In this document: one piece after another, positions 29,459-32,572 of the stretch
Position numbering within the stretch: the first letter of the stretch is position 1
How the letters are laid out: each line of letters opens with the position of its first letter
DNA from: Nitrosopumilus sp.
Lineage (GTDB): Archaea; Thermoproteota; Nitrososphaeria; Nitrososphaerales; Nitrosopumilaceae
Length of the DNA stretch: 64,000 bases
Assembly: GCA_029862745.1 (NCBI GenBank)
Contig: JAOTWS010000007.1
Location: 1-64,000 of the forward strand
Direction of reading: 5' to 3'
The notes under the pieces: generated by a model
Databases searched by the model: none
Seen by the model: only the letters and a program-made list of their open reading frames with translations
What the model was told of the DNA's origin: nothing
Translations under genes and position numbers: made by a program

Positions 29459-30175
29459 ATGTTAATAATGAGGTCTAACAAAATTTTTGTTTTTATTGTA
29501 ATGTTGATATTTATCACTGCCTCTTCAGAACATCTAGTTTTGGGTTATGGCGGACCTCCTGAACAAACCAGTGCTAATAATTACACTACAAAGATAAACA
29601 CCAATCAGGAGTCTTACGATCTTGGTGAATCTGTTATATTTTCTGGAAATGTCAATAAATACGATGAAGATAGAAGTCTGAGAATTTCAATTTTTGATTC
29701 TAACAAAAACCTAATTGTAACTCAAAAAACTCTTGTTGATACTGATGGTACATTTTCCCATAGTTTAGTCCTTGATGAATATTTTCTTTATGGAAAATAT
29801 ACAGTTAAAGCTCAATATGGTAATTCAAAGGCAACTGTTGAAAGTATTTCTTTCTTGATAAATTCTAATGACATATCATCTATAGAAGAAGCATCTAATC
29901 AAAAAATTCCTAATTGGATTAAGAGTAATGCCGGTTGGTGGGCAAATGGTCAAATTGATGACAATTCATTTGTAGAAGGAATTCAATTCTTGATCAAAGA
30001 AGGATTAATGAAAATACCTGTTACTAAACAAGGTACGATTTCTCAAGACAATGATATCCCTAATTGGATTAAGAGTAATGCCGGTTGGTGGGCAAATGGT
30101 CAAATTGATGACAATTCATTTGTAGAAGGAATTCAATTCTTGATCAAAGAAGGATTAATGAAAATATCAAATTAA
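29459..30175 (+). CDS. Secreted protein with MG2-like domain and two NAGWW repeats
   Basis: 238 residues (a second ATG at 29468 is closer to leaderless spacing from TTTAAATTA). Signal peptide at residues 5-28. Residues 40-130 form a beta-sandwich (TNQESYDLGESVIFSG). Two C-terminal repeats of about 36 residues are nearly identical: IPNWIKSNAGWWANGQIDD, then a helix FVEGIQFLIKEGLMKI. The DNA repeats are 29909-30016 and 30059-30166. The same repeat type is found at 44248-44934. Its role is unknown, probably surface-linked. Confidence 0.78.
   Translation: MLIMRSNKIFVFIVMLIFITASSEHLVLGYGGPPEQTSANNYTTKINTNQESYDLGESVIFSGNVNKYDEDRSLRISIFDSNKNLIVTQKTLVDTDGTFSHSLVLDEYFLYGKYTVKAQYGNSKATVESISFLINSNDISSIEEASNQKIPNWIKSNAGWWANGQIDDNSFVEGIQFLIKEGLMKIPVTKQGTISQDNDIPNWIKSNAGWWANGQIDDNSFVEGIQFLIKEGLMKISN
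29909..30166 (+). repeat. 108-bp direct repeat pair (150-bp period) encoding NAGWW modules
   Basis: 29909-30016 and 30059-30166 match along 108 bp and encode the two NAGWW modules, joined by a 42-bp linker. Confidence 0.85.
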
Positions 30176-30780: not shown

Positions 30781-31110
30781 ATGACAATCATCAATAGTAT
30801 GATGAAAAAAATAGATACTGATGTATCTAACCTTAAGCAGGGCCTATATCCTCAAAACCTATCCTTCTGGTATCATAAAATTATCAAAGAAACAATTGAA
30901 ATGGCTCCACCTTGGCTTCACGACAAAATCAAGGTACATCAAGATCCAATTCTTACTATGAAATTTAATTTAGATATTTCAAAACGTGCTGTCAGATATT
31001 TTATGATTGGAGTAGACAATAATTTAGATAACATGCCATATTCCACAAAACTCTATTTTCTTAAAGTACAAGAAATAATGTCAACTGAAATGGACAAATC
31101 CTTAGTTTGA
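30781..31110 (+). CDS. Hypothetical helical protein (109 aa)
   Basis: 109 residues, mostly alpha-helical, with an aromatic and basic centre (NLSFWYHKIIKETIEMAPPWLHDKIKVHQ) and DISKRAVRYFMIGVDN. No signal peptide or known motif. Located 52 bp after coaD. I do not recognise a family. Confidence 0.55.
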   Translation: MTIINSMMKKIDTDVSNLKQGLYPQNLSFWYHKIIKETIEMAPPWLHDKIKVHQDPILTMKFNLDISKRAVRYFMIGVDNNLDNMPYSTKLYFLKVQEIMSTEMDKSLV

Positions 31111-31183: not shown

Positions 31184-32143
31184 ATGGAATTATACAAATC
31201 AAAATATTCGGATAAAAAAAAATCTCACAGAAATAATAAACGAAACAATGAATCATTTCGTTCATTTAGATATTCCAGAGATGACAATAGAGGCGAGTCT
31301 ACAACTGTAACATGTGCTGATTGTAGTGCTGAATGCCAAGTTCCATTTGTTCCAAGAACTGATAGACCTGTTTATTGTAGTGATTGTTTCAGAAGAAACA
31401 AATCACATGATTCAGAAAGTGACAGAAGTTCAAGATATTCCAGAGATGACAGAAGTTCAAGATATTCCAGAGATGACAGAAGTTCAAGATATTCCAGAGA
31501 TGACAATAGAGGCGAGTCTACAACTGTAACATGTGCTGATTGTAGTGCTGAATGCCAAGTTCCATTTGTTCCAAGAACTGATAGACCTGTTTATTGTAGT
31601 GATTGTTTCAGAAGAAACAAATCACATGATTCAGAAAGTGACAGAAGTTCAAGATATTCCAGAGATGACAGAAGTTCAAGATATTCCAGAGATGACAGAA
31701 GTTCAAGATATTCCAGAGATGACAGAAGTTCAAGATCATCTTATGGTCAAGAATCTAGTGCAAACAAATCTAGATCCAAAAAATCAAGAAACGATAAATT
31801 TTTAAAAAAACAAGAGCGTTTCTATTCTCATGGTTCAGATAAATTCTATGCAGGAATAAAAGAAAAATTATTTGAAATATTGGGAGGTAAGATTTGTTCA
31901 AGTTGTGGTTTTAAGGACGAAAGAGCGTTGGAAATTGGCTACATATTTGGCGATGATTCATCTGACGGTACTGGACGAGGTAATGCTTCTCTAATGGGAA
32001 AATATATCTCAGAACCTGAACTTGCCAGAAAAGAACTTAAAGTATTGTGTTTAAATTGTAATGAACTAAGAGAAATTATATCAAAACCCGAAGAAAATTA
32101 TTCAAAACCTAAACAGAAAAAGAGTAGATATTTCCCACGTTAA
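31184..32143 (+). CDS. Zinc-finger and RS-repeat protein with C-terminal CxxC pair
   Basis: 319 residues. It holds two identical zinc fingers (Cys 44/47/51/65/68 and 117/120/124/138/141) with the motif CADCSAECQVPF...RPVYCSDCF, related to CxxC fingers in RNA/DNA-binding proteins. Each is followed by three or more copies of the nonapeptide RSSRYSRDD. The C-terminal domain has CSSC and CLNC about 50 residues apart, like an HNH-type zinc site without the catalytic His. Nucleic-acid binding is inferred. A TATATAC about 28 nt upstream supports the start. Confidence 0.75.
   Translation: MELYKSKYSDKKKSHRNNKRNNESFRSFRYSRDDNRGESTTVTCADCSAECQVPFVPRTDRPVYCSDCFRRNKSHDSESDRSSRYSRDDRSSRYSRDDRSSRYSRDDNRGESTTVTCADCSAECQVPFVPRTDRPVYCSDCFRRNKSHDSESDRSSRYSRDDRSSRYSRDDRSSRYSRDDRSSRSSYGQESSANKSRSKKSRNDKFLKKQERFYSHGSDKFYAGIKEKLFEILGGKICSSCGFKDERALEIGYIFGDDSSDGTGRGNASLMGKYISEPELARKELKVLCLNCNELREIISKPEENYSKPKQKKSRYFPR
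31268..31705 (+). repeat. 219-bp in-frame tandem duplication plus 27-bp RS repeats
   Basis: 31268-31486 recurs at 31487-31705 (period 219). Nested 27-bp units encoding RSSRYSRDD occur three times in the first copy and three to four times in the second. Confidence 0.85.
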
Positions 32144-32205: not shown

Positions 32206-32289
32206 ATGAATGGTGACTTTAAGGCATTAGGAATTTCTTTGATTGTCATAGTTGGAGTTATAACTCTATATACTGTGTTTGGTCAGTAG
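32206..32289 (+). CDS. 27-residue single-span membrane microprotein
   Basis: The ORF begins MNGDFKALGISLIVIVGVIT, with one hydrophobic helix and a short polar N-terminus. TTTAATTATA is centred 25 nt before the ATG, as for a leaderless gene. It converges with a minus-strand ORF ending 2 bp away. No family is recognised. Confidence 0.55.
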   Translation: MNGDFKALGISLIVIVGVITLYTVFGQ

Positions 32290-32290
32290 A

Positions 32291-32572
32291 TTACCCCTTA
32301 ACAATTTCTACAATATTTTCAAGAATATTGGTTGAAACTAGCTGATGCTCTTTATCAATGACTGACTGAATAAAGTCAGCAAATTTCTCTACATCAACTT
32401 CATCTTTTAATAATATACTATGAGCTGATTTATCTTTCAATGAAATAATTAATTCATTTTTCACAGCATTTAGAATACCTGTGATGAAAGTTTCATTACC
32501 ATCCTTGATGAAAATCAATGTGGCTAACTTTGTAGCTTCGTACTTATCGTCACATATGATGCGTATTTTCAT
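32291..32572 (-). CDS. Hypothetical protein (93 aa) coupled to trpS
   Basis: 93 residues, alpha/beta, opening MKIRIICDDKYEATKLATLIFI. Its ATG overlaps the trpS stop by 4 bp (ATGA-type overlap), so it is translated from the same message. It resembles small accessory or KEOPS/Cgi121-like alpha-beta proteins in shape only. Function is not known. Confidence 0.65.
   Translation of the reverse strand: MKIRIICDDKYEATKLATLIFIKDGNETFITGILNAVKNELIISLKDKSAHSILLKDEVDVEKFADFIQSVIDKEHQLVSTNILENIVEIVKG

Follow-up and report, generated by a model that had tools for sequence, protein, structure and literature searches.

What does a Nitrosopumilus gene that sets zinc fingers beside arginine/serine (RS) repeats encode, and is it expanding by tandem duplication, as the original prediction held? 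The gene lies in a window of 64,000 nucleotides (Nitrosopumilus sp., GCA_029862745.1, contig JAOTWS010000007.1, positions 1-64,000, forward strand), which belongs to a genome in 17 contigs.

Exact repeats and tandem fingers

The encoded protein starts with an N-terminal tail, continues with a pair of fingers and a pair of RS linkers, and closes with a putative C-terminal zinc domain (Table 1). TRF reported a period of 219 bp with 2.1 copies and 100% matches across 31268-31724, and together with the repeat search it bore out the predicted duplication of an intact unit at the DNA level. RS-repeat sequence stands at both the start and the end of each 219-bp unit, which suggests that the units may arise by recombination between RS arrays.

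Table 1. Coordinates of the finger gene, its internal features and its neighbours in the window
Feature	Positions	Strand	Remarks
Whole gene	31184-32143	+	Intact ORF, ATG start, 319 aa
219-bp unit 1 (finger 1 and RS array 1)	31268-31486	+	100% identical to unit 2
219-bp unit 2 (finger 2 and RS array 2)	31487-31705	+	100% identical to unit 1 (repeat search)
Finger 1, CxxC-x17-CxxC (TIGR04272/PF23477)	31298-31402	+	Profile matches
Finger 2, CxxC-x17-CxxC (TIGR04272/PF23477)	31517-31621	+	Profile matches
RS array 1, 27-bp repeat, nonapeptide DRSSRYSRD	31420-31505	+	3.2 copies; TRF, 100% matches
RS array 2, 27-bp repeat	31639-31736	+	3.6 copies; TRF, 100% matches
C-terminal domain, putative HNH-like treble clef without DH motif, conserved FPR end	31763-32140	+	About residues 194-319
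109-aa protein, upstream neighbour	30781-31110	+	No Pfam match
93-aa protein adjoining TrpRS	32291-32572	-	Sub-threshold match to cyclic-di-AMP receptor family
27-codon ORF MNGDFKALGISLIVIVGVITLYTVFGQ	32206-32289	+	Likely single-helix membrane microprotein

Both finger profiles were matched well above their thresholds: TIGR04272 with 105.4 bits against a curated cut-off of 36 (8.3e-31, two stretches covering both fingers) and PF23477 (zf_Tbcl_2) with 103.5 bits against a gathering cut-off of 27 (4.5e-30). Judged by these scores, both fingers are standard, full members of the known CxxC-x17-CxxC domain. Matches to this domain outside Nitrosopumilaceae are mostly short and single-fingered, whereas here the finger occurs in tandem, with RS linkers and a putative HNH-like tail. 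Elsewhere in the source genome the fingers have none but weak matches (72-74% DNA identity), which lie in a separate gene with two fingers on a different contig.

RS-like repeats beside zinc fingers had been called unusual in archaea, and this is partly right. In a sample of 151 genomes of the phylum, finger matches outside Nitrosopumilaceae came chiefly from short frames with a single finger, and the longer proteins inspected there end in a finger fused to another domain. Inside Nitrosopumilaceae, by contrast, fingers are as a rule accompanied by a disordered, arginine-rich linker, and other finger proteins in these genomes have GGRFGG or RGG linkers. Two-finger RGG-linker proteins (C3:68604-68933 in the source genome and G132:C1:1210451) likewise combine two fingers of the family with an arginine-rich, probably disordered linker; they differ from the gene at 31184-32143 in having GGRFGG/RGG instead of RS, non-identical fingers and no C-terminal domain. 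The second of these proteins (L148) has a classical RGG-box linker, GGRFGGRGGGGYGGNRGGGRF. In some genomes of the phylum (L141-L145) a conserved domain beginning VTVIVDDAGSGDLLFGVVIGAYR, for which there was no clear Pfam match, has the finger fused to its C-terminus.

AlphaFold gave pLDDT below 50 for the linkers (residues 1-39, 68-111 and 143-201), with the fingers and the C-terminal domain better ordered. SR proteins are recognised by a stretch of at least 50 residues with more than 40% RS content, and residues 154-203 have 56% of their residues in RS/SR dipeptides. Eukaryotic SR proteins likewise place an RS-rich disordered region beside a presumed nucleic-acid-binding module. The archaeal protein differs from them in its RSSRYSRDD repeats with acidic residues and in the absence of an RRM (none among Pfam matches of the whole protein up to E 10), and there is no evidence of common descent.

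Turnover of the finger array among orthologs

Orthologs were present in Nitrosopumilus, Nitrosarchaeum and one further genus of the same family. Searching 151 genomes of the order with a C-terminal-domain profile returned 22 close orthologs, all in Nitrosopumilus and two further genera of the family, plus five weak matches in three genomes of other families. A scan of named contigs found 48 loci, mostly from Nitrosopumilus, Nitrosarchaeum and Marine Group I; one record labelled Nitrososphaeraceae (L062) resembles the Nitrosarchaeum loci in sequence. Matches to the fingers themselves came from 33 of 61 genomes. Nitrosopumilus accounts for 32 of these, and a few of the matches are to the two-finger paralog only.

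The neighbourhood matched that of the source locus in 53 of 53 ortholog loci. Downstream, the cdAMP-receptor-like gene and TrpRS were found in all 53; both upstream neighbours were recovered in 35, and in the other 18 the contig ends inside the gene. Sister genera show a closed locus. Eleven genomes of the family are without the gene, and in these the 109-aa gene directly adjoins the cdAMP-receptor-like gene, so the finger gene was either gained at this spot or cleanly lost from it. The 109-aa protein is better conserved than the finger protein and also occurs in other families of the order. A strict pattern picked up homologs of the likely microprotein MNGDFKALGISLIVIVGVITLYTVFGQ immediately after the finger gene in roughly half of the 48 contig loci, and they are present in G020 and G025 too. 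Further upstream in the window, the protein at 29459-30175 (+) ends in two near-identical copies of IPNWIKSNAGWWANGQIDDNSFVEGIQFLIKEGLMKI.

We surveyed finger number in these relatives, using one genome per species, and found that it varies between species. Among single-contig genomes the intact orthologs carried three fingers (G007, all identical, and G035), two (G021, G013, G135, G150 and G129) or one (G126, G153, G009, G062 and G094). One further single-contig gene (G006, L010) has four fingers, but one of its RS repeats has lost about 10 bp, which breaks the frame after finger 1; in another (G156, L108) the whole array is deleted, leaving no fingers and no frame. The frame is also broken in L060 and L065. 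In these four cases, which span single-contig genomes and drafts, the break inside the RS repeats or the loss of the whole array may be a real mutation or an assembly error. Because several assemblies change frame in the RS repeats, programmed frameshifting there was weighed, but it was rejected, given that the direction and position of the shift vary and most orthologs are in frame. Slippage by whole 27-bp units would preserve the frame, 27 being divisible by three, and on/off phase variation by this route was therefore rejected as well.

The same survey bears on whether the exact duplication could be an artefact of assembly. The source genome is in 17 contigs, and the gene is evidently hard to assemble, since 18 of 48 related contigs break off in the 700 bp before the C-terminal domain and none in the 700 bp after it (Fisher p ~1e-6). 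Against an artefact, short-read errors usually collapse repeats rather than duplicate them, and two or three identical units occur in single-contig relatives. A complete artefact is unlikely because such relatives (G007, G021, G013, G135, G150 and G129) share the architecture, and we regard artefactual duplication in the source genome as very improbable; the exact copy number in this multi-contig genome is provisional. The gene is a recurrent break point, many metagenome assemblies being interrupted inside it, and finger numbers taken from short reads or from genomes that are not closed should not be relied on.

To measure homogenisation, fingers were compared across 45 distinct genes, 19 of which have at least two. 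Finger DNA identity averaged 0.949 within a gene and 0.818 between genes, and synonymous codon differences amounted to 36/870 (4.1%) within against 14977/53829 (27.8%) between; none of 2000 label shuffles reached the observed within-gene likeness. In the source gene none of 28 comparable finger codons differs synonymously, compared with 28% between genes. Identity that extends to synonymous sites points to recent duplication or homogenisation at the DNA level in this gene rather than to protein constraint. Several genes hold two or three identical finger copies and others retain two finger types. These comparisons show an array that repeatedly expands or homogenises, its turnover being recurrent and not a single ancient duplication. 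The proposed expansion by tandem duplication is supported, and it applies throughout the ortholog family.

Turnover of this kind could also be mostly neutral, with the repeats as slippage products, finger number functionally meaningless and the conserved work done by the C-terminal domain. Unit number does vary freely between species, some assemblies show frameshifts and one an array deletion, and a GC-rich relative does without fingers. This relative (G020, GC 70% at the locus) has in the matching position a gene for some 357 residues, with RGG/RD repeats and a 144-bp tandem repeat of its own; the double knuckle is shortened, but the FPR ending is shared. Its position and end motifs are the grounds for taking it as an ortholog. 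In another (G029, 63% GC), GANR repeats separate a retained N-terminal SYRNSRYD motif from a retained C-terminal domain; the fingers are apparently missing, and the assembly shows a frame change. The absence of fingers in these two, together with the broken frames in G006, G156, L060 and L065, indicates that the fingers or the gene may be dispensable.

Three observations speak against neutrality. Tandem periods in the orthologs (TRF) are divisible by three in 123 of 124 cases, 27 bp being the commonest, which indicates selection on the frame; the finger cysteines and a PF.P....P.YC core are invariant; and linker composition is kept despite a changed repeat unit. Across orthologs the linkers contain about 24% R, 19% S, 16% D and 6% Y with a net charge near +0.1 per residue, and the G020 linker retains these proportions (R 26, D 16, net charge +0.13) although serine has given way to glycine. 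Linker chemistry thus seems to be conserved rather than linker sequence, and a mainly neutral origin of the array is, in our judgement, unlikely.

A putative HNH-like C-terminal domain

The C-terminal domain, which the original prediction did not mention, is the best-conserved part of the protein among orthologs, and its dN/dS of 0.07-0.23 indicates purifying selection. No family scored above cut-off in the region after residue 193, PDB sequence searches turned up nothing usable for either the full-length protein or the C-terminal profile, and Foldseek alone found no significant match for the domain model. Other families of the order contain distant relatives with the pattern CxxCG..D.R.L.(D/N)H...CANC. 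By hhalign, the domain matched these HNH-like relatives at 98.2%, the relatives matched HNH proteins at 94.9%, and the domain matched HNH proteins directly at 76.9%, compared with 0.5% and 1.1% for finger-alignment controls. The 15 best VIA-align rows were almost all HNH nucleases or HNH-like proteins (best Z 4.8), for a fold model of moderate confidence (pLDDT 68, pTM 0.50).

Like HNH endonucleases (PF01844), the domain has two zinc-knuckle pairs, CG..D.R.L and C.NCN, in addition to the profile similarity through the HNH-like relatives and the HNH rows of the fold comparison. It differs from them at the catalytic DH motif, where Asp is present in 0 of 52 members and His in 20, with Pro, Asp, Tyr or Asn at the His site in the other 32; the source protein has GY there. 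It also stays below the PF01844 gathering cut-off: seven of the 52 members match weakly (best E 0.04) and the source copy gave no match. The domain is therefore best described as HNH-like and probably not catalytic, and is not classed as an HNH endonuclease. With the DH motif lost, it probably binds rather than cuts.

A candidate multivalent nucleic-acid binder

With moderate confidence, we propose that the gene encodes a modular, multivalent binder of nucleic acid, most likely RNA, whose finger number shifts by recombination. One to three tandem CxxC-x17-CxxC fingers, presumably metal-binding, would be carried on disordered linkers of arginine, serine, aspartate and tyrosine, and a conserved zinc domain would close the protein, a descendant of an HNH-type fold whose catalytic motif is gone. 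The near-identical 27-bp linker repeats flanking each finger could provide the homology for unequal recombination or slippage, which would add, remove and homogenise finger-plus-linker units in frame, so that valency would vary from species to species against a constant linker composition. The possible dispensability of the fingers or of the gene, and the moderate confidence of the C-terminal fold model, weigh against this reading.

A nucleic-acid ligand is favoured by the other finger proteins with GGRFGG/RGG linkers, the exchange of RS for RGG and the absent active site. The ligand might be DNA, with the HNH-derived domain and fingers gripping it and the arginine-rich linkers compacting it in a nucleoid or repair-associated protein: HNH domains normally act on DNA, the fold rows include the HNH domains of Cap5, GmeHNH and ZRANB3, and the linkers are net positive. 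However, RS, RGG and R+Y linkers are generally typical of RNA binders, and helicase, repair and recombinase genes are absent among the neighbours; we hold a DNA-binding role to be rather improbable. RNA thus appears the likelier ligand, with DNA or protein binding also conceivable, and the RNA binding or phase separation originally suggested for the finger protein is plausible. Taken as a whole, the original interpretation is supported in part.

Literature on the finger domain, on Nitrosopumilus zinc fingers, repeats, proteome and HNH proteins, and on archaeal RS/RGG condensates yielded no paper on this finger protein. More speculatively, it might be a disordered RNA-granule scaffold special to these ammonia-oxidising archaea, with valency and linker length tuned by recombination of the 27-bp repeats. 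If so, tuning would occur between species and perhaps strains, with RS swapped for RGG in GC-rich relatives and the chemistry kept, and the protein would be an archaeal counterpart of sticker-and-spacer systems, with a domesticated HNH fold as its foundation. Arginine-rich disordered nucleic-acid binders have been little studied in archaea, and this locus in abundant marine archaea offers a natural ortholog series with 0, 1, 2 or 3 fingers and RS or RGG linkers, in which the influence of valency and linker chemistry on binding or condensation could readily be compared.
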